This document shows, one piece after another, positions 2,867-19,011 of a DNA stretch of 21,462 bases; within the stretch, counting starts at the first letter, position 1; every line of letters begins with the position of its first letter. Under the pieces are notes generated by a model. The model did no database searches. It saw only the letters and a list, made by a program, of their open reading frames with translations, and was not told where the DNA came from. The translations under genes were made by a program, and so were the position numbers. Source of the DNA: a virus. The stretch is taken from the IMG/VR virus record IMGVR_UViG_3300029286_000279, positions 1 through 21,462 of that record. One strand, written 5' to 3'.

Positions 2867-3186
2867 TTAAGAGCCTCCTTAATATAACCACGACCGATGT
2901 CATACTTATCCGGGTATTGAACGGGGATCTTATTTAAGAACTCCATCTCTTGTGTGTGATTTAAAGGTTGTAGATTGCGATCCTTTATGAGCCCACGCTT
3001 AAGAACAAACATTGATTCATTAGGCTCTGTGTGCGCCAATAAGAAACGATAATAAGTTTGCTGGTCAAACTTGTATTGTTCTGTTCCAGGTTGATTGCGC
3101 TCGGAAGCCCAGAGACAAGAAAGGAAGTAGCGGTCATCAGCTACCCCCCTTTTATCTTGTAAGGCTTTTTCTATTTGGTCTTTCAT
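2863..3186 (-). CDS. Hypothetical phage protein next to replication gene (107 aa)
   Basis: Unrecognised 107-residue soluble protein, rich in Gln, Tyr and charged residues (for example DRYFLSCLWASERNQPG). It overlaps by 4 bp with the replisome-organiser-like gene upstream and with the 135-aa gene downstream, so all are probably one transcript. The nearest Shine-Dalgarno (GGAG) is about 11 nt before the ATG, longer than ideal, so coupling to the upstream gene may matter. Its tight link to a replication-initiation candidate hints at a replication accessory role, for instance a loader partner, but nothing in the sequence proves it. Confidence 0.65.
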   Translation of the reverse strand: MKDQIEKALQDKRGVADDRYFLSCLWASERNQPGTEQYKFDQQTYYRFLLAHTEPNESMFVLKRGLIKDRNLQPLNHTQEMEFLNKIPVQYPDKYDIGRGYIKEALK

Positions 3187-4217
3187 TTTATCTTAAACTC
3201 CTTTAAGGCTGCTCTTGCTGCCTCCGGCATGGGGACAATAGGCCCTTCGTCAGGGGTTGGCACGTATACAGGTTGTTTATAAACAGGCTCAACTTTACCG
3301 GAAAATCCTGTATCTCTTTTTTCCCATGTCCGCACACACGCTTTCCAATCTATCATTTTGCTTTTTCCTATAAACCAGTTCTTTGCGATATAAAAATCAA
3401 GAAATGTCTGCGCATCAACCTTGTTTTTTCTTTCCTTGCAATAGTCCTGTATCTCTTTAAGTGTAGGCTTAACGAACGCCGTACTCTTTTTTTCTTTTAC
3501 AGGAGTATTGATTATTATTTTTTGTGGTTCCTGTCCTATGGTTTCAATAGTCTCTACATTTTTTATCTTTGGAAGAATTAGATGTAGGAGATTAAGACTA
3601 TATTCACCGTCAACGAATACTTTATCATTAGATAAAAAGAACAGCCTTATGTATTCTATTACTCTATCTTTCTTGTATTGTTTCATAATGGGGCGCAGGA
3701 TCTTCTGGCCTTTGTCCCAGTCAATGGTGAATGGCTTTGACATTTTTCCGTTCCACGATGCCGCAAAGAAATCAAGAACTTCTTTTATTTCTGTGTTTTT
3801 ATTTACAAAGTTACCTCTTCCGGTCTTTTCCAACAATTCATCAAATGCTCCTACCTGTTCAAGCCATGTCTGCGTAGGGAAGGATAATTCTCCCAGTTGT
3901 TTGTTAGCATTAAACAGGAATGTTGGTCTTGAATATGTCTGATATTTTATATAATTTCTTATATATATAACCCCAAGTTCTTTATTATATAGCATCTTGT
4001 TGGCTGTTTTAGCTTTTTCTAAAAATGAAACAATATCTTCTTCACTTATTTCAGCCTCATACACCACCAAGGACCACGGTATTTCATATACTCCACATAA
4101 GGTCGTGTGCATATTTGTAATAAAATAAAGAAAAGCTAATTTTTCAGATGGGTTTAGAGTTCTAACAAAAGGATCGTGCCAAAACCAACTATGGATTGTT
4201 CTGTTTACTCCGGCCAT
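3183..4217 (-). CDS. Putative phage replisome organiser / replication initiation protein
   Basis: 344 residues. Residues 1 to about 110 (NRTIHSWFWHDPFVRTLNPSEKLAFLYFITN, then GVYEIPWSLVV and LGVIYIRNYIKYQ) resemble the N-terminal winged-helix DNA-binding domain of phage replisome organisers, which start by resembling a small helical 'target size' domain. A linker rich in Lys, Thr and Pro (about 225-250) leads to a C-terminal helical domain with FLDFYIAKNWFIGKSKMIDWKACVRTWEKR (about 265-300), the pattern seen at the end of DnaD/DnaT-like and phage replication proteins. Such proteins bind the phage origin and recruit host helicase. A cluster of DnaA boxes and repeats at 8.9-9.1 kb is a plausible target. 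The ATG has GGGAGGGG at a good distance. The assignment is by fold-like pattern, not by a decisive motif. Confidence 0.6.
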   Translation of the reverse strand: MAGVNRTIHSWFWHDPFVRTLNPSEKLAFLYFITNMHTTLCGVYEIPWSLVVYEAEISEEDIVSFLEKAKTANKMLYNKELGVIYIRNYIKYQTYSRPTFLFNANKQLGELSFPTQTWLEQVGAFDELLEKTGRGNFVNKNTEIKEVLDFFAASWNGKMSKPFTIDWDKGQKILRPIMKQYKKDRVIEYIRLFFLSNDKVFVDGEYSLNLLHLILPKIKNVETIETIGQEPQKIIINTPVKEKKSTAFVKPTLKEIQDYCKERKNKVDAQTFLDFYIAKNWFIGKSKMIDWKACVRTWEKRDTGFSGKVEPVYKQPVYVPTPDEGPIVPMPEAARAALKEFKIK

Positions 4218-4576: not shown

Positions 4577-5296
4577 TTAGAATTTCAGATTCTCTCCTTC
4601 GTCTTTAGTTCTATCTATTAATTCTTCTTCAACGCCTGTCTGTTCAAGGTGTGCCTTAAATTGGTTCTTAATAGCAGCCATTTTTAGTATCTGGGATTCT
4701 GATAGCGCATCCCCCAGCGACATTTTTATCTTGGCGAACTTAAACCCTCCGCTTTCGGCTGTTTCAAGCGCGAATTTAACATTAAACATGATAGGCGGCT
4801 TTTTCTCGTGTATCATCGTGCTGATAAACCCGTCAAATATCTTTAACGATGTTGGTGGGATAGTAAGCACGACCGGGTAAAGGTCATCTGTCTTCTCAAC
4901 CAACATAACTCTTCTCATTTCCTTACAGGCCTTGCCATTGCCGCCCTTTCCTGATCCCCACGCGTTCATCGGGCAGGATTCGCACGGCCTTGTCTCAACT
5001 ACATCAGCAGCCTTGAAAGTCCCGGTCTTGCCGTTAAGGGACGAGCATAGCGGTAACTTCTGCCCCTCTTCCCATAATCCGCGGATCTTCTGGTTAATAA
5101 CTATCACGCCTTCTACGGTATCTTTCCGTATCTTCATGTTGTCAACATTGTAAAACTCGAGTGATTTGTGGTCAACGGTATAGCGCGGGGGTCTGAATGA
5201 AATCCCTTCCTGCGCGTCTTTAAGGTCGTCAAGCAGCATATCCTTCATGGTAACGGACATTTTTGTATCGCCGAGAGTGGTCATTTTATCTGTCAT
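4577..5296 (-). CDS. Putative ssDNA-binding or recombination accessory protein with Cys cluster
   Basis: 239 residues. The central region carries LPLCSSLNGKTG, then RPCESCPMNAWGSGKGGNGKACKEMRRVM (about residues 83-131). This is a pattern of four Cys with CPxNxWGS and GKACxxxRR that I recall from phage proteins encoded next to recombination nucleases. The rest looks beta-rich. A role in binding ssDNA or supporting the adjacent nuclease is inferred mainly from context, since this gene overlaps the PD-(D/E)XK nuclease gene by 4 bp (ATGA). The start ATG has an ideal AAGGAGG 7 nt upstream. The C-terminus is acidic (EEELIDRTKDEGENLKF), as in many phage and bacterial ssDNA-binding proteins. Confidence in the gene is high; confidence in the role is low to moderate. 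Confidence 0.6.
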   Translation of the reverse strand: MTDKMTTLGDTKMSVTMKDMLLDDLKDAQEGISFRPPRYTVDHKSLEFYNVDNMKIRKDTVEGVIVINQKIRGLWEEGQKLPLCSSLNGKTGTFKAADVVETRPCESCPMNAWGSGKGGNGKACKEMRRVMLVEKTDDLYPVVLTIPPTSLKIFDGFISTMIHEKKPPIMFNVKFALETAESGGFKFAKIKMSLGDALSESQILKMAAIKNQFKAHLEQTGVEEELIDRTKDEGENLKF

Positions 5297-6249
5297 ATCA
5301 ATTCCTCCTTCAATATATTTTGAACCTCATCAGAGAACGCGGCCGTGTCTGTCTTCTGTAAAGCCTCCTTTTCTTGTAATTTTTGTTTCCAATATACACA
5401 AAAATGGTTTACGGGGCAATAGCTTTCACACCTCTTGTCTTCCCACCTTTCGTCAACTGTGCATATTTCCGGTGTTTTGTTGAGTTCCAGCGCGGACAAT
5501 AGTGCTCGCGACTTCTCATTAAAGTAATCCAGCACTTCTTGATCCGGCATAAACGGCACATCTATCAATTCAACAGGCTTTAGGTCGTGGCCTATTATCT
5601 TGGTATTTTTAGCCATATTATAATCTTTAATGAACGCCTCTATAATCATACGGTCTATCTTGAACCCTGCTTTTTCAAACATGATGCGATAATGGTTTAC
5701 CTGCAATATCCAGTCCCTCATGTCAATAGAGTCTGTCTTGCGGTATTCTGACAACATTTTGGGCTGACCCTTGCGCGGTCCTGACTTGAACACCTGATCT
5801 GTCGGTATCTCGACCTTTTTGATACCGAGCGCTTTCTTGACCTTGTATGCCGCGGAGGTCTTGAAATCGTATAGCGTTGTGATGCCGTTCTCCATTTCAA
5901 GGCAATCGGGTTTCCCTGATATGCCTTCATTGAACTGTTCTTCCTGGAGTGACATCTCATCATCCTGCGCCTCAAGGCCGGAGTGAACCTTTGTGCCTTG
6001 CACTCTGAAGGCCATATTCATGGGCGACTCGTAGAAGTCATTCGTGATCTTGAGGAATTCCATGAGTGTTCCGTTGAGCAATTGCGTGGTTGACGGGATC
6101 CCGTTCCATTTTCTTGTCCGGCTCATAAGTTGTAAGGTAGGCCGCGAACAACAACGCAGACCATCCGGAGATATACACTTGGATAAACATTCTTCAAACT
6201 TGATAGGGCAACCATCGGCTTTTGGACAACGAAAGCCTTTTAGTCCCAT
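5293..6249 (-). CDS. Cas4/RecB-type PD-(D/E)XK exonuclease with Cys cluster
   Basis: 318 residues. The nuclease signatures are in order: GTKVHSGLE with His89 (motif I), GKPDCLE with Asp115, LYDFKTS with Asp128 and Lys130 (the D/ExK step), and QVNHY with Gln183 and Tyr187. At the C-terminus Cys263, then C274-x3-C278-x5-C284, resemble the Cys set that binds an Fe-S cluster in Cas4 and AddB. The N-terminus has six more Cys between residues 8 and 34. Phage proteins of this type act as DNA exonucleases in recombination or replication. There is no Cas1, Cas2 or CRISPR array nearby, so a CRISPR role is unlikely. The start has AGAGGAG upstream. It overlaps the next gene by 4 bp. Confidence 0.85.
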   Translation of the reverse strand: MGLKGFRCPKADGCPIKFEECLSKCISPDGLRCCSRPTLQLMSRTRKWNGIPSTTQLLNGTLMEFLKITNDFYESPMNMAFRVQGTKVHSGLEAQDDEMSLQEEQFNEGISGKPDCLEMENGITTLYDFKTSAAYKVKKALGIKKVEIPTDQVFKSGPRKGQPKMLSEYRKTDSIDMRDWILQVNHYRIMFEKAGFKIDRMIIEAFIKDYNMAKNTKIIGHDLKPVELIDVPFMPDQEVLDYFNEKSRALLSALELNKTPEICTVDERWEDKRCESYCPVNHFCVYWKQKLQEKEALQKTDTAAFSDEVQNILKEELI

Positions 6250-8220: not shown

Positions 8221-8350
8221 GTTATTTCCGGGATATAGGCGGAGTAACCGAACTGTAACGGGGTTGTAGCGATCATGGAGTAGGGCGATGAAGATGCGGA
8301 GGAACGGGATATTGTGAAAAAAAGTACAATAAACTGACCATCTACTATCC

Positions 8351-8394
8351 AACTACCGCCTAACTACTTACCAACTACTTACCAACTCCTTTAC
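8351..8394. repeat. 11-bp tandem repeat
   Basis: Two perfect adjacent copies of aactacttacc (8362-8372 and 8373-8383), flanked by one degenerate copy on each side (8351-8361 and 8384-8394), keeping an 11-bp period. The period equals about one helical turn. It is upstream of the leftward promoter and could be a protein-binding array. Confidence 0.65.
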
Positions 8395-8401
8395 CTCTTC
8401 C

Positions 8402-8431
8402 TTTTCCTTTTCCTTTTCCTTTTCCTTTTCC
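8402..8431. repeat. TTTTCC hexamer array (homopyrimidine tract)
   Basis: Five perfect TTTTCC units, with degenerate neighbours on both sides, giving a nearly pure pyrimidine stretch from about 8385 to 8442 interrupted only by a few adenines. On the other strand it is GGAAAA repeats. Such tracts may form triplex or bent DNA. It lies between the leftward promoter and the DnaA-box cluster. Confidence 0.85.
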
Positions 8432-8897
8432 TTTACCTTTACTAAAGAGCGCAAACAATCAAAATTGGATCATTCGCTGTCGCTCATTGCGTATTTAAGA
8501 AATTTCAAAGAAACAAAAAAGATCGGAATTCTCTTATCTTAAAAGCTCCGGCATTGATGATCTATCAGCTCTTCCGCCAGCAATAGACTTGTTCCGCCTC
8601 GCCACAGCTCATTATCGCCTCTAATAGCCACGTTAAATTGTGTCGGGCTATCCTACCCCTATGTCGTGTCGTTGCGTTCGTCCTTGCTTAAATGCTGTTG
8701 TCTTGTGCTGTTGTGTCGCATGATGTGTGCCACCTCAATGATGAATGCAAAGATATAGGGAAACATCGTAATATATAACAGCGTGTGAATATATAGCGCG
8801 CATAATATATAATAGAGATGAGGTAATGATGTGTTGTGGCGATATATAGGGTGGCAAGGTTTGTTAAGCCGCCCCCATATTTTAATTATCCCCGTTT
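8432..8897. other. Non-coding stretch with AT-rich segment, part of origin region
   Basis: No convincing gene is seen on either strand; the only long frame (8659-8919, minus) has no ribosome binding site and unlikely composition. The segment at about 8768-8815 is very AT-rich, with several atatat steps, and could be the unwinding element of the origin. A 9-bp direct repeat tgctgttgt occurs at 8693-8701 and 8706-8714. Nothing else is recognisable. Confidence 0.5.
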
Positions 8898-8955
8898 CTA
8901 CACCGCAGGATAATTTCAAAAATAGTCTAGGGTATGCTACACCGCAGGATAATTT
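8898..8955. repeat. 19-bp direct repeat, iteron-like
   Basis: The sequence ctacaccgcaggataattt occurs exactly twice, at 8898-8916 and 8937-8955, with a 39-bp period. It lies 22 bp before the first DnaA box. Paired identical repeats next to a DnaA-box cluster look like binding sites for a phage replication initiator (iterons) or a late-transcription regulator. Confidence 0.8.
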
Positions 8956-8976: not shown

Positions 8977-9083
8977 TTATCCACAATCTATCCACAGCTT
9001 GTCGAGGAGTTATGCACAGGTTATGCACAGGGTAAAAAACAGTAAAGTAGCTCTTAATTTAACTACTTATCCACATATCCACA
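8977..9083 (+). other. DnaA-box cluster, candidate replication origin
   Basis: Six matches to the DnaA box TTWTNCACA or one step from it, all in the same orientation: TTATCCACA at 8977, CTATCCACA at 8988, TTATGCACA at 9010 and 9021, TTATCCACA at 9067, ATATCCACA at 9075. The first four start points are 11, 22 and 11 bp apart, so they lie on one face of the helix. Together with the AT-rich segment and 19-bp repeats just left of it, and its place between divergent operons, this is a strong origin candidate that would recruit host DnaA. Confidence 0.8.
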
Positions 9084-9169
9084 GTTACTACTACTACTGC
9101 TATCTTTCTCTTTGTCTTAAATCCGGAAGTAAATAAGAATAATAAATAGTTCAAAAAACCAAAAAAACT

Positions 9170-9197
9170 TTGTTTGGTTAAAAAATCGTGATATACT
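9170..9197 (+). promoter_or_regulatory. Putative rightward promoter before packaging genes
   Basis: TTGTTT (9170-9175) and TATACT (9192-9197) with a 16-bp spacer, about 30 bp before the first rightward gene. The -10 is close to consensus and the -35 is weaker, as expected for a regulated promoter. A 7-bp inverted repeat, aaccaaa (9157-9163) and tttggtt (9173-9179), overlaps the -35 and may be an operator. Confidence 0.5.
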
Positions 9198-9227: not shown

Positions 9228-9494
9228 ATGGCAAAGAGTTCCTCTGGGGTGACAACAAAGATCAGCGATATAAAGCGTTGGCAGGAGAATGGGTTATACA
9301 GTCTTGCTGATGAAGCTATTCGGAGATGTTTACAGAGTACGAAGCACTGTTTAGAGATGACGAAGTGGATATACGAGCAAAAGAACGGGAAAGCAGCGCA
9401 GGGTGTAGAGCTAAGTGGAGACATTGGGTTTAGTATAACGGACTTAGCGAAGAAGGCTTTAGAGATAAACCGGGATAATGTTAGTCACACCTAG
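9228..9494 (+). CDS. terS: Putative small terminase subunit
   Basis: 88 residues, ATG preceded by GGAGGG at 8 nt. It lies directly before the large terminase with a 17-bp overlap, the usual place for the small subunit, which recognises phage DNA and regulates packaging. The sequence ISDIKRWQENGLYSLADEAIRRCLQSTKHCLEMTKWIYEQKNGKA is helical and shares with small terminases and related phage DNA-binding proteins the 'ADEAI' and 'W..K.GKA.Q..ELSGDI' features. It is short for the family (often 130-180 residues) and has no clear helix-turn-helix, so the call relies mainly on position. Confidence 0.55.
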   Translation: MAKSSSGVTTKISDIKRWQENGLYSLADEAIRRCLQSTKHCLEMTKWIYEQKNGKAAQGVELSGDIGFSITDLAKKALEINRDNVSHT

Positions 9495-11982
9495 CGTTAT
9501 GAGCGATGTCGAAGGGATGGAAGCGATTTTGGACCGCGGAGCGCAAGACCCGTGTTGGTTTGTTGAGAATGTTTTAGGAGTAGACACTCTAATTTGGCAG
9601 GGGCATAAGGACATATTAAATGCTTTTCTTACGAACGATAGAGTTGCAGTCAAGAGTGGCCATTGTTTTTGTAAAGGCACAAAAATTCTTATGTCAGACG
9701 GAAGAGTTAAGAAAGTTGAAGATATTGAAGTAAGCGAATTGATTATGGGCGATGACTCTTCTCCTAGAAAAGTTTTAAGTTTAAGTCGTGGACAGGAAAG
9801 GATGTATAGAGTAACTTATTATGATGGAACAGAATATATACATAACGAGTCTCATATACTCTGCCTTAAGGGAATGTCTAATCATGGAAAAATGGTTAAA
9901 GATAAAATCATTGAGATTAGTATTAAAGATTTTCTCAAACTTGGATCACATCATAAACGAAGATACGCCGGGTTCAGAGTTGGAGTTGAATATGAACAAA
10001 AATCACTTCCAATTCCAGCGTATATTTTTGGCATTTGGCTTGGAGATGGATGTAAAACAACTTCCGACTTTGCAAATATTGATAAAGAAATTCTTGACGA
10101 ACTTAAAAATTATACAGAAACTATCGGATGTGAGTTTACGAATAATAAGAACGGTAGAAACCATAATATTTCAGCAAGAAAAAAACGCAATCCTTTTCTT
10201 GGGAAATTACGGGACTTAGGAGTATTTAATAATAAATGTATACCGGATATTTATATGACAGGTTCAAGACAGCAAAGATTGGAACTTTTGGCAGGGATGA
10301 TAGATTCAGATGGGTCAAGACATGAGCAAGGAGGCGGATATGAAATTATACAAAAACGCAAAGAACTTGCAGAGCAAATATTCGTTCTTGCAAGGTCTCT
10401 TGGAGTATTTGCGAGTATTAACGAAAAATATGTTTCATCAGATTTTGAAGATGGATCTCATACTGAAGGGACTTATTATAGAGTTTATATCGGCAGAGGC
10501 TTATGTGATTTGCCATCAAGATTATTACGCAAAAGACCATTGTGTGTTTCAGGCAATAGAGATTTAAATTGTACGGCAATTAGGTCGATAGAAGACTTAG
10601 GAATAGGAGATTATTATGGATTTGTTATTGATGGGAACCAACGATTTCTCGGATCAGACTTTATGGTTCTCCACAATAGCATGGGGAAAGATTTCATATC
10701 AGGAGTTCTTAGTCTATGGTTCTTATTGTGTCACAGGCCGTCGATAGTAATAACAACTGCCCCGTCAATGAGGCAGGTGTCAAATATTGTGTGGGGGGAA
10801 ATAAGGAAATATTATCACAGATGCAGGATACCAATAGGTGGCAAACTGAAACAACAGGAGTTGAGGATTTCGGACGATTGGTATGCAATCGGTTTCACAA
10901 CCAAGGAGACGCACAATACAATTGGTAAGTTCCAAGGGTTCAAAGGAGCAAACATTTTGGTTTTAGCAACAGAAGCCCAGGCGATGGAAGCCTCTATCTT
11001 TGAACAGATGGAAGGTATTCTTACCGCGGAGAACTCAAAGCTGTATGTTGCAGGAAACCCGCTCGGCACGGACTGCTATTTCTACCAGATATTCCGCGAT
11101 CCGTCCTATAAACATTTTTCTTTTTCATGTTACGACTCACCTAATTACATCGCAAATAAAACGATCGTCCCCGGCATGGTAGGCCGCAAATGGGTAGAAG
11201 ACAAAGAAAAACGCTGGGGTAAAAACTCACCTCTTTTCCAAGGCAGAGTTCTCGGCCAGTTCCCGGACTTATCTATCAACTCCATGGTCTCGCTCACACA
11301 GCTTGAGAGGTCGGTAACGAACGAAAAACCAAAAGAAGGCATCAAAGTTATAGGTCTTGACCCCGCACGAAAAGGAAACGATTCTACAGTATTTTATGCT
11401 GTTGACGGCGGCAAGACTTTAGAGAAAAAACAGTATTACGGAAAAGCCACAAACGAAACCGAGGACATCGCATTTGACATGATAAAGAGAATAAAACCAA
11501 AATATATTATTGTTGACGAAGGAAGTTTCGGTATCGCTATTATTGACGCACTGGAGCGGTATCTTCCGGAGTTCAATAAAACTTATAACTGCGATACAGA
11601 GGTTATTACTTTCAGGTTCGGAGGCAGGGCTACTGACAGGAATTTTGCTAACGCAGGAACGCAAACTTATTTTGAGGTGTGCGATAAAATAGCAAAGGGC
11701 GATATTCAAATGGCGGAAGACTATGAACTGTTTAACGAACTCGCCGCACGTAAATATGAATACCGAAAAGGTATCATGATAATGGAGCCGAAAGAAGATT
11801 TCAAGAAACGAATAGGACATTCACCTGACAGCGCGGACGCGTGTGTCATGGCGTTCAGCATCTCTATGGAAGATACTTTTTCTGAAAAGTTCGAGCAGGA
11901 ACAGGAAGAGATAGAGCAGGAAATAAAGATGGACATTGATTCAGTAACAGGTTATCGCCAGATATACGGAAAGATAAATTAA
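9478..11982 (+). CDS. terL: Terminase large subunit with in-frame intein
   Basis: 834-residue precursor. Removing residues 63-400 (intein) leaves a 496-residue terminase of normal size. The rejoined sequence gives the Walker A loop VKSGHSMGKDF across the splice point. Walker B is near ILVLATEAQ with Glu499, where the usual Asp is Thr498. The coupling motif AGNPLG is at 525-530. The RNase H-like nuclease has Asp628 (VIGLDPARKG), Asp680 (YIIVDEG) and Asp784/787 (SPDSADA). The enzyme cuts concatemeric DNA and pumps it through the portal. The start could also be the Met at 9499, 4 nt after the upstream stop; neither has a strong ribosome binding site, and coupling to the upstream gene is likely. 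The intein region is more AT-rich than the flanking extein. Confidence 0.95.
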   Translation: MLVTPSVMSDVEGMEAILDRGAQDPCWFVENVLGVDTLIWQGHKDILNAFLTNDRVAVKSGHCFCKGTKILMSDGRVKKVEDIEVSELIMGDDSSPRKVLSLSRGQERMYRVTYYDGTEYIHNESHILCLKGMSNHGKMVKDKIIEISIKDFLKLGSHHKRRYAGFRVGVEYEQKSLPIPAYIFGIWLGDGCKTTSDFANIDKEILDELKNYTETIGCEFTNNKNGRNHNISARKKRNPFLGKLRDLGVFNNKCIPDIYMTGSRQQRLELLAGMIDSDGSRHEQGGGYEIIQKRKELAEQIFVLARSLGVFASINEKYVSSDFEDGSHTEGTYYRVYIGRGLCDLPSRLLRKRPLCVSGNRDLNCTAIRSIEDLGIGDYYGFVIDGNQRFLGSDFMVLHNSMGKDFISGVLSLWFLLCHRPSIVITTAPSMRQVSNIVWGEIRKYYHRCRIPIGGKLKQQELRISDDWYAIGFTTKETHNTIGKFQGFKGANILVLATEAQAMEASIFEQMEGILTAENSKLYVAGNPLGTDCYFYQIFRDPSYKHFSFSCYDSPNYIANKTIVPGMVGRKWVEDKEKRWGKNSPLFQGRVLGQFPDLSINSMVSLTQLERSVTNEKPKEGIKVIGLDPARKGNDSTVFYAVDGGKTLEKKQYYGKATNETEDIAFDMIKRIKPKYIIVDEGSFGIAIIDALERYLPEFNKTYNCDTEVITFRFGGRATDRNFANAGTQTYFEVCDKIAKGDIQMAEDYELFNELAARKYEYRKGIMIMEPKEDFKKRIGHSPDSADACVMAFSISMEDTFSEKFEQEQEEIEQEIKMDIDSVTGYRQIYGKIN
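9664..10677 (+). mobile_element. Intein with LAGLIDADG homing endonuclease in the terminase P-loop
   Basis: 338 residues, precursor positions 63-400. Block A starts at Cys63 (CFCKGTKILMSDG). Block B is IHNESH with His126, having Asn in place of the usual Thr. The endonuclease has two LAGLIDADG helices, IFGIWLGDG (Asp190) and LAGMIDSDG (Asp278). The C-terminal blocks are DYYGFVIDGNQRFLG and MVLHN, followed by Ser401 as the first C-extein residue. All residues needed for self-splicing (Cys1, penultimate His, terminal Asn, +1 Ser) are present, so it should be active. The endonuclease would cut intein-free terminase genes at the P-loop codons and copy the intein in. Confidence 0.93.
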
Positions 11983-15840: not shown

Positions 15841-16344
15841 ATGGCAAATGCCACAAGATACGGGTTCAAACCCGTCATGAAAGGGTTTGGAATAGACCCT
15901 AATCCAAGAAAATATCCCGCTACAAGCGCAGCAACTATCGCAATAGGCGATGCAGTTATTATTGACAGCGCAGGCAGAGTTTCGGTTGCAACAGCTGCGA
16001 GTTCTACGGAACTTTTAGGCGTTGCGGCATCTGCTGTAACTTCCGCAACAGAAGGTGACCCTATATACGTTTGGGATAACCCGGATATGCTTTTTGAAGC
16101 TATGGCTTCGACGGGAGCATTAGCAGACAGTTATACCACTCGTTCAAGGGCTGCGTGTTTTGATCTTGCAGGAACTACAGGCGAAATGTATGTAAATGCC
16201 GCGGCTTCTTCAGAGGATCTATTTAAGTGCATAGGTGAATGCGCTAAAGACCCCTCAAGCGGAGCTGATTCTGCGGTAGGTTCAAATCAGATGAAATACT
16301 GGAAAATTTCCAGTGGCGCTCATGTTTACGGAACAATAGCATAA
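15841..16344 (+). CDS. Capsid decoration-type structural protein, copy 1
   Basis: 167 residues. The opening MANATRYGFKPVMKG, the beta-rich core with IGDAVIIDSAGRV, GVAASAVT and DPIYVWDNPDMLFEAM, and the end DLFKCIGEC ... VGSNQMKYWKI match a phage structural family I recall near capsid genes, with 'M..TARYGFRPV...', 'VYDDPD..FE' and 'E.GAN.K..VKI' positions. It probably coats or stabilises the head. RBS AAAGGAG lies before the ATG. The next gene is a clear paralogue. The exact role is inferred from family and place. Confidence 0.65.
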   Translation: MANATRYGFKPVMKGFGIDPNPRKYPATSAATIAIGDAVIIDSAGRVSVATAASSTELLGVAASAVTSATEGDPIYVWDNPDMLFEAMASTGALADSYTTRSRAACFDLAGTTGEMYVNAAASSEDLFKCIGECAKDPSSGADSAVGSNQMKYWKISSGAHVYGTIA

Positions 16345-16365: not shown

Positions 16366-16872
16366 ATGGCTAATACGGCAAGATACGGTTTTAAACCTGT
16401 AATGAAAGGGATGGGAGATGACCCGACACCTAGAAAGTATCCTTTGGCTGCTTCGCAGACAATAGGTGTTAACGATGTTGTGGCGCTTGACAGCGCAGGT
16501 AGGGTAACAATAGCCACTTCGACTACGACAAAAGGTCTATATCTCGGAGTAGCAGCAACACCTTGCACATCAAGTACTGTTGGTGACCCGATTTATGTTT
16601 ATGACGACCCGAATATGATATATGAAGCTATGGCTTCTACGGGTGCGTTGGCTGATAGTTACACAACGAGGTCAGCAGGTGCTTGCTTTGACTTAACAGG
16701 CGCAACCGGAGCACAGTATGTGAATACTGCATCTCATACTTATGACCTGTTCAAGTGCATTGGCGAGTGTTCAAAAGATCCTGTTACAGGAGCAGATTCA
16801 GCAGTCGGTTCTAACCAGATGAAGTTTTGGAAGATTAATTCAATAGCACATGCCTATGGCACGGTGGCTTAA
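16366..16872 (+). CDS. Capsid decoration-type structural protein, copy 2 (paralogue)
   Basis: 168 residues, aligned with copy 1 end to end with nearly no gaps. Identical blocks include RYGFKPVMKG, DSAGRV, EAMASTGALADSYTTRS, LFKCIGEC and GADSAVGSNQMK. The DNA under those blocks differs at many third positions, so the duplication is old and both copies are kept by selection. AGGAGGCG lies 7 nt before the ATG. The difference lies mostly in the surface-like Thr/Ser segments. The two may form a mixed shell or sit at different sites on the capsid. Confidence 0.65.
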   Translation: MANTARYGFKPVMKGMGDDPTPRKYPLAASQTIGVNDVVALDSAGRVTIATSTTTKGLYLGVAATPCTSSTVGDPIYVYDDPNMIYEAMASTGALADSYTTRSAGACFDLTGATGAQYVNTASHTYDLFKCIGECSKDPVTGADSAVGSNQMKFWKINSIAHAYGTVA

Positions 16873-18573: not shown

Positions 18574-18755
18574 TGAAAAAGAATAGAGGGGATATGCCAA
18601 CCAAGGATGGGCGTTTCCAGGGAACTTTGTACGAGTGCAAAGTTTGCGGGCTTGCTTTAAGAAAGAAAGACGCAAGATGGCAAAGGGGAGGCTGGGTCCA
18701 TAGAAATACTTGCTGGGATGAAAGGGGATATAGAGAAAATGTTTCCAATAGGTGA
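18573..18755 (+). CDS. Small zinc-ribbon-like protein (60 aa)
   Basis: 60 residues. The core YECKVCGLALRKKDARWQRGGWVHRNTCW has C-x2-C at the front and H-x3-C at the back, the shape of a small treble-clef or zinc-ribbon finger with a long basic middle. Basic overall, so nucleic acid binding is possible. Its ATG shares a base with the stop of the gene before it (TGATG) and its end overlaps the GroES-like gene by 17-38 bp, depending on that gene's start. Confidence 0.6.
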   Translation: MKKNRGDMPTKDGRFQGTLYECKVCGLALRKKDARWQRGGWVHRNTCWDERGYRENVSNR

Positions 18756-19011
18756 CAACATAATACTGAAACCAATGTATCCTGAAGACAAAACCAAGAG
18801 CGGGCTTATACTTGCATCAGGCGGTAATTCAGAATTAGTAAGACAGGTTTATCCTGACAGGGGCGTTGTTTTAGTATCAAAAAAAAGCGAGTTTAAGGAG
18901 GGTGAAGTTGTTGTATTTAACAGGTTTGGGAGCAATATTATAAATGATGGGAATATTGAGTATTATGTTGTCCCTGTTTGCGATATTATTGCAAAGATAG
19001 AAGAAAACTAG
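18739..19011 (+). CDS. GroES-like co-chaperonin
   Basis: 90 residues from the ATG at 18739 (AAAGGGG 11 nt upstream); a longer form from 18718 is possible but the shorter one begins where GroES does. Alignment by eye: FPIGDNIILKPMYPEDKTKSGLILAS against the GroES start 'RPLHDRVIVKR...TKSAGGIVL', then GVVLVS, EFKEGEVVVFNRFGS against the 'KVGDIVIFN.GYG' strand, and the end VCDIIAKIE against 'ESDILAIVE'. LIL (23-25) fits the IVL tripeptide of the mobile loop that docks to GroEL. It would cap host GroEL to fold phage proteins, as T4 gp31 does. No GroEL gene is in the window. Confidence 0.82.
   Translation: MFPIGDNIILKPMYPEDKTKSGLILASGGNSELVRQVYPDRGVVLVSKKSEFKEGEVVVFNRFGSNIINDGNIEYYVVPVCDIIAKIEEN

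Follow-up and report, generated by a model that had tools for sequence, protein, structure and literature searches.

A probable host-DnaA-dependent replication origin with the anatomy of a bacterial basal unwinding system in an uncultured tailed phage

The intergenic region between the early and late operons of a viral contig contains an element whose anatomy, as read from the sequence, is that of the basal unwinding system (BUS) of bacterial chromosomes. The element is probably a host-DnaA-dependent replication origin of the phage, or one of its origins, built as a BUS; this reading draws on the anatomy of the sequence, for which chromosomes served as calibration, and on the conservation seen in other phages. 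The contig, referred to here as the window, is the whole IMG/VR record of 21,462 bp and is probably a genome fragment of an uncultured tailed phage. A BUS features a pair of co-oriented DnaA boxes followed by DnaA-trios, on which DnaA oligomerizes to melt the DNA (PMC8287927, PMC6669920, PMC10721633, PMC8235120). The DnaA-trio is a 3'-GAT-5' repeat that reads 5'-CTA-3' on the strand of the boxes (PMC8287927).

The element features six DnaA boxes, all on the + strand, that span 107 bp (8977-9083), as an earlier note on this DNA had reported. Four of the six match TTATNCACA exactly and two deviate at position 1. Box 1 (8977-8985, TTATCCACA) matches the consensus, box 2 (8988-8996, CTATCCACA) has one mismatch, boxes 3 and 4 (9010-9018 and 9021-9029) both read TTATGCACA, and boxes 5 (9067-9075, TTATCCACA) and 6 (9075-9083, ATATCCACA) are the strong and the weaker box of a fused pair adjoining the trios. 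The densest same-strand cluster per 107 bp in 100 first-order Markov sequences held 3 boxes and was seen once, and a Poisson estimate for the six-box cluster is 3e-10; the cluster is not explained by chance. The boxes had also been described as helically phased. The spacings are, in order, 11, 22, 11, 46, and 8 bp, so the phasing applies to boxes 1-4, which are one or two helical turns apart, but not to boxes 5 and 6, as box 5 is 8.57 turns (10.5 bp per turn) from box 1. Phased tandem boxes were discarded as a novelty because viral contigs commonly have 11-bp pairs (at least 120 contigs, versus 40 for the reversed pattern). A strong trio run was found in 2 of the 120 tandem-box viral contigs listed and the other 118 lack one; since most viral box clusters are without trios, boxes alone need not mean a BUS mechanism.

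Two features of the window were missed by the earlier note. Boxes 5 and 6 share one base (9067-9075/9075-9083), and the fused boxes are followed by an in-register DnaA-trio run, TTA CTA CTA CTA CTG CTA, at 9085-9102 (+ strand; trio definition from PMC8287927), which reads 3'-AAT GAT GAT GAT GAC GAT-5' on the bottom strand. The run consists of six NTN triplets, four of which are CTA, and begins 9 nt past consensus box 5 and 1 nt past fused box 6. If the first TTA is taken as spacer, the box 6-to-trio spacer is GTTA (9084-9087), which reaches the canonical 4 nt, and five trios remain from 9088 (CTA CTA CTA CTG CTA, 9088-9102). GTTA is canonical in length and lacks the GC-richness typical of a BUS; the published BUS search sets a spacer length and no required sequence (PMC8287927). 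The + strand of the window has no other run with at least five [CT]T[AG] triplets. Given the local base composition, the chance of such a trio score within 16 nt of a given site is ~3e-4, and that of a strict trio run within 6 nt is ~5e-5.

Published BUS rules describe a DnaA box by the trios, often as a tandem co-oriented pair of which the upstream box is nearer to the consensus (PMC8287927). The trio criterion used here was at least three in-register DnaA-trios (3'-GAT-5'-like, with a middle A), 0-16 nt away and on the correct strand and side. The window has such a pair in TTATCCACA and ATATCCACA, in-register trios 9 nt past the strong box, and unstable DNA past the trios, and its spacing, orientation, and fused boxes agree with the published rules. 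The boxes by the trios are likewise fused or overlapping in B. subtilis and H. pylori; window box 5 resembles B. subtilis box 6 and H. pylori ts1, and the window trio 3'-GAC-5' has a counterpart in the H. pylori run (PMC8235120).

Low-stability DNA lies on the side predicted by the polarity of the boxes, the same polarity as in E. coli, from R1 to the unwinding element (DUE). A probable DUE was assigned to 9103-9190 from duplex stability; the stretch to the right of the trios is in the top 0.3-0.5% of positions for instability, and 9126-9185 belongs to the 0.3% of the window with the lowest stability. The AT-rich segment at 8768-8815, which the earlier note had proposed as the partner of the boxes, does not fit this role. 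It is located behind the boxes, which is the wrong side given their polarity, and its instability is no more than moderate (top 6-14% of positions), so it was rejected as an unwinding element. The paired 19-bp repeat of the same note was recovered as two 100% identical direct copies of CTACACCGCAGGATAATTT on the + strand (8898-8916 and 8937-8955), which are 39 bp apart, start to start, the second ending 22 bp before box 1. This repeat was not found in other viral contigs and is possibly a site for a phage regulator or initiator. Beyond the two-copy repeat, no iteron array was found beside the DnaA boxes.

The sequence pattern was calibrated on bacterial chromosomes by searching one genome per species (84,980 genomes) with a strict pattern consisting of the fused boxes, G, up to 5 nt, and YTACTACTA. 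The search gave 111 matches over many phyla, and 102 of these adjoin dnaA/dnaN, with a median of 168 nt to dnaA (tblastn with E. coli proteins); the strict pattern therefore marks oriC specifically. A 4-nt spacer is present in 106 of the 111 matches, and the median chromosomal trio score of 16.5 is the window's own score. The chromosomal spacers are GC-rich in nearly all matches, unlike the GTTA of the window. At one chromosomal locus (L444) the trios start directly after the G, as they do in the window.

The main competing explanation is a DnaA-responsive regulatory region, in which the boxes would act on the late promoter (about 9170-9197) or on the early promoter without opening an origin, and host DnaA would activate or repress transcription, tying the lytic switch to host growth. 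The boxes occupy a divergent regulatory region, and a plausible extended -10 element follows them at a distance of about 100-200 bp. This possible element (TGnTATACT, 9189-9197, + strand) was identified by eye, was missed by a consensus scan, and would belong to a rightward late promoter; the unstable DNA to the right of the trios may also be this promoter. Many viral contigs carry box clusters without trios, DnaA is able to act as a transcription factor, and box-like sites at lambda pO have been footprinted (PMC3985674). However, a promoter requires neither a fused pair nor in-register trios, and in the window both match chromosomal origins in spacing and score. A regulatory role in place of an origin is therefore considered unlikely.

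The non-coding region with the BUS-type element is roughly 1 kb long and is located between the early and late operons, as had been stated before. Leftward genes up to ~8.35 kb encode a C5 methyltransferase, a DnaD-like helicase loader or replisome organizer (3183-4217, - strand; PHROGs 1701, 1.3e-15, and 6251, 3e-14), an early-operon exonuclease (5293-6249, - strand; phrog_2139, 3.7e-15), and small genes. Rightward genes from 9228 include a first late gene that was assigned to the small-terminase position without a family match (9228-9494, + strand), the terminase large subunit (9478-11982, + strand; family matches), a portal-like protein, the major capsid protein, and others. The terminase large subunit bears, near its ATPase motif, an intein with a LAGLIDADG homing endonuclease. 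A perfect leftward sigma-70 promoter (TTGACA-18-TATAAT) is found at 8220-8191, and upstream of it, at 8333-8440, 11/22-bp tandem repeats precede nine TCCTTT units. Elsewhere in the window, 1570-2208 encodes a protein whose N-terminal part consists of about ten 18-bp (six-residue) tandem repeats, 15841-16344 and 16366-16872 encode neighbouring paralogous proteins (68% identical) in the decoration-protein position before the capsid gene, and 18718-19011 encodes a GroES-like co-chaperonin of the phage (PF00166, 3.7e-8).

GC skew had been suggested as a check on the origin, and a minimum is found at 8659. However, the skew changes in the same intergenic region in which the genes change direction, so the test is uninformative and the minimum was rejected as origin proof. 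A megablast of the window against 50,697 phage records gave no match. A TerL search matched one viral contig at 33% identity, which is without a DnaA-box cluster, and found no relative among genomes. Contigs with the loader's C-terminal domain in common share little else with the window, and DnaA-box clusters were absent from them. Neither TerL (viral contigs and genomes), the phage megablast, nor the 19-bp repeat led to a close relative, in searches from which IMG/VR records close to the window may have been excluded. One BLAST match among the phage records, MT836067 (L447, 'Bacteriophage sp.'), holds a bacterial dnaA-oriC-dnaN region that looks like host sequence and was discarded.

The same element is present in other viral contigs. 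Fused boxes with three trios were found in 18 contigs among the 2.9 million of IMG/VR, so a strict BUS is rare among them; a control with polarity-reversed trios gave 4 contigs, of which 3 are the same loci as in the strict set, with TTATTATTA runs. A loose BUS pattern matched at least 119 contigs, but most of these matches are a third degenerate box, TTAxTAACA, and not trios, so it was rejected as a criterion and the strict pattern was adopted. The 18 strict contigs and 7 looser cases were followed as 25 BUS-type contigs. The contigs carrying the element are mostly unrelated, 9 of the 25 have a terminase match, and their elements are mostly intergenic with additional co-oriented boxes. None of the 25 encodes DnaA or DnaN, and they are therefore not misfiled dnaA-type oriC regions. 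The window itself was rejected as a misfiled bacterial oriC on account of its phage early and late gene flanks and its lack of dnaA/dnaN neighbours.

Three related tailed-phage contigs (L318, L320, and L257) share 65-84% nucleotide identity where aligned, and tape measure, tail fibre, and tail genes are found in this group (gene matches made on L318). The core TTATCCACATTATCCACAGG(A/G)CCTATTACTACTACTA is kept in all three with one substitution while the flanks have strongly diverged, which suggests that purifying selection acts on the element in those phages, a conclusion that does not extend to the window phage. Two BUS contigs besides the window encode a DnaD-like loader. In G004 the element occurs together with exonucleases, an annealing protein, and a DnaD-like loader that belongs to the same families as that of the window, and G018 carries it with another DnaD-like loader and DnaB. 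The loader is found in 3 of 23 or 24 BUS contigs and in 0 of 29 control contigs, a suggestive association in small numbers.

A 275-kb viral contig (L324) has a BUS element at a gene-direction switch (8343-8369) and also encodes its own clamp loader, primase, and DnaB. The complete 4.8-kb ssDNA genome of Gokushovirus WZ-2015a (L446, KT264804) has an intergenic BUS-like element at 1414-1537, in which three DnaA boxes are followed by TTATCCACATTTCCACAGCACC and five CTA trios. The microvirus bajarodmic virus 162 (L451) has five tandem DnaA boxes 11-12 bp apart at 1501-1555, immediately adjacent to where the replication initiator gene is annotated to end, with no trios at the boxes.

The earlier note had suggested a chromosome-like origin that relies on host DnaA, perhaps with plasmid-like replication. 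Its core gains from the fused boxes, the trios, the unstable DNA on the expected side, and the viral contigs without dnaA; the AT-rich partner falls away, and plasmid-like replication finds no support. ParA (PF13614) was not seen in the window, which is a fragment, nor in any of 22 BUS contigs, and a phage-plasmid reading was set aside.

We infer from the anatomy that DnaA binds, the DNA melts, helicases are loaded, and the element is used during infection, as follows. Host DnaA-ATP would bind boxes 1-4 upstream as well as the fused pair at 9067-9083. Starting at the fused pair, it would oligomerize along the bottom strand of the trio run (9085-9102) and melt the unstable DNA to the right, at about 9085-9190. 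The phage DnaD-like protein (3183-4217), with a host or phage helicase loader and helicase, would then place helicases on the open strands, and theta replication would start in the region that separates the early from the late operon. At a later stage, the exonuclease would drive recombination-dependent replication, which would provide the packaging substrate. The + strand complementary to the trios features TnnT repeats, and TnnT repeats form the DnaD recognition element (DRE) of B. subtilis (PMC10201434). The repeats at 9085-9102 are a possible DnaD recognition element, and the phage DnaD-like protein may use the TnnT strand to recruit the helicase. TnnT follows automatically from the trios, so the repeats are not independent evidence.

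The loader also allows a second competing explanation, in which the organizer opens the true origin elsewhere and the element is an auxiliary site that aids helicase reloading or gives a second origin. Many phages with replisome organizers open their own origin, the most unstable 40-60 bp of the window are inside the loader gene (3931-3991), and other origins may lie outside the window because it is a fragment. Against this, no iteron-like repeats were found in or beside the loader gene, which was rejected as a site of origin iterons, and the BUS lies in a non-coding stretch of roughly 1 kb that makes the obvious candidate for the origin; there is little likelihood that the element is merely auxiliary. 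That it is a captured remnant or decoy, a piece of host oriC that at most titrates DnaA and restrains host replication, is very improbable: its arrangement is the chromosomal one and DnaA titration sites are known in bacteria, but a titration site requires neither trios nor spacing, traces of dnaA/dnaN are absent beside the element, and the core in other phages looks to be under purifying selection.

With the element read as an origin, a broader proposal can be put forward tentatively. Unrelated phages may have independently adopted a minimal bacterial oriC, so that host DnaA-ATP starts their replication and replication follows the host cell cycle, with some adding a DnaD-like protein to take over helicase loading. 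The adopters would be the window phage, several tailed-phage lineages, the 275-kb phage contig, and possibly the ssDNA gokushovirus. In the usual view, the opening of a phage origin is the task of a phage initiator. If phages do carry a complete chromosomal opening module, some of them would hand replication initiation over to host DnaA, and their burst would be tied to the growth state of the host and sensitive to whatever lowers DnaA-ATP. The phage elements are natural, very small BUS variants for asking which parts of the module are needed, and the BUS signature finds candidate origins in uncultured phages.

The closest known systems are B. subtilis oriC incC (boxes 6/7 and trios) and H. 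pylori oriC2 (ts1/ts2 and trios), both of which feature a fused co-oriented pair. The window has in common with these chromosomal systems a spacer of 4 nt and a run of about 5-6 trios, located on the same side and strand, as well as AT-rich DNA past the trios and extra upstream boxes. The B. subtilis trios read 5'-CTACTATTACTTCTACTA-3' (PMC10201434), compared with TTACTACTACTACTGCTA in the window. Unlike the chromosomal BUS, the window element is in a phage and away from dnaA/dnaN, its spacer is GTTA, and its DnaD-like partner is phage-encoded. The plasmid origin oriR of P1/P7 is also a phage origin bearing host DnaA boxes; however, P7 oriR features RepA iterons and Dam sites, its boxes are without trios, and it needs the phage RepA, whereas the window has no RepA-like iteron array and no ParA. 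The window encodes a protein of the phage replisome organizer or DnaD-like loader systems (phrog_1701, phrog_6251). Phages with replisome organizers are generally thought to open their own origin via a phage protein, and the window differs from them in also having a host-initiator module. Opening of the lambda origin depends on lambda O, which acts at iterons, and on transcriptional activation; to our knowledge this origin contains no BUS. In lambda, as proposed for the window, phage DNA close to the origin is contacted by host DnaA, with an effect on replication, and footprints were obtained at DnaA-box-like sites close to the pO promoter (PMC3985674); DnaA only assists there, unlike the role proposed for the window element. 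Predicted DnaA sites without positional asymmetry have been reported for alphaproteobacterial phages (PMC9437464), and an Ori-Finder origin with DnaA boxes has been reported for a Pseudomonas phage (PMC11512268). No description of DnaA-trios in a phage was found in the open-licence papers examined. By its sequence features, the element belongs with the BUS, found here in a phage.
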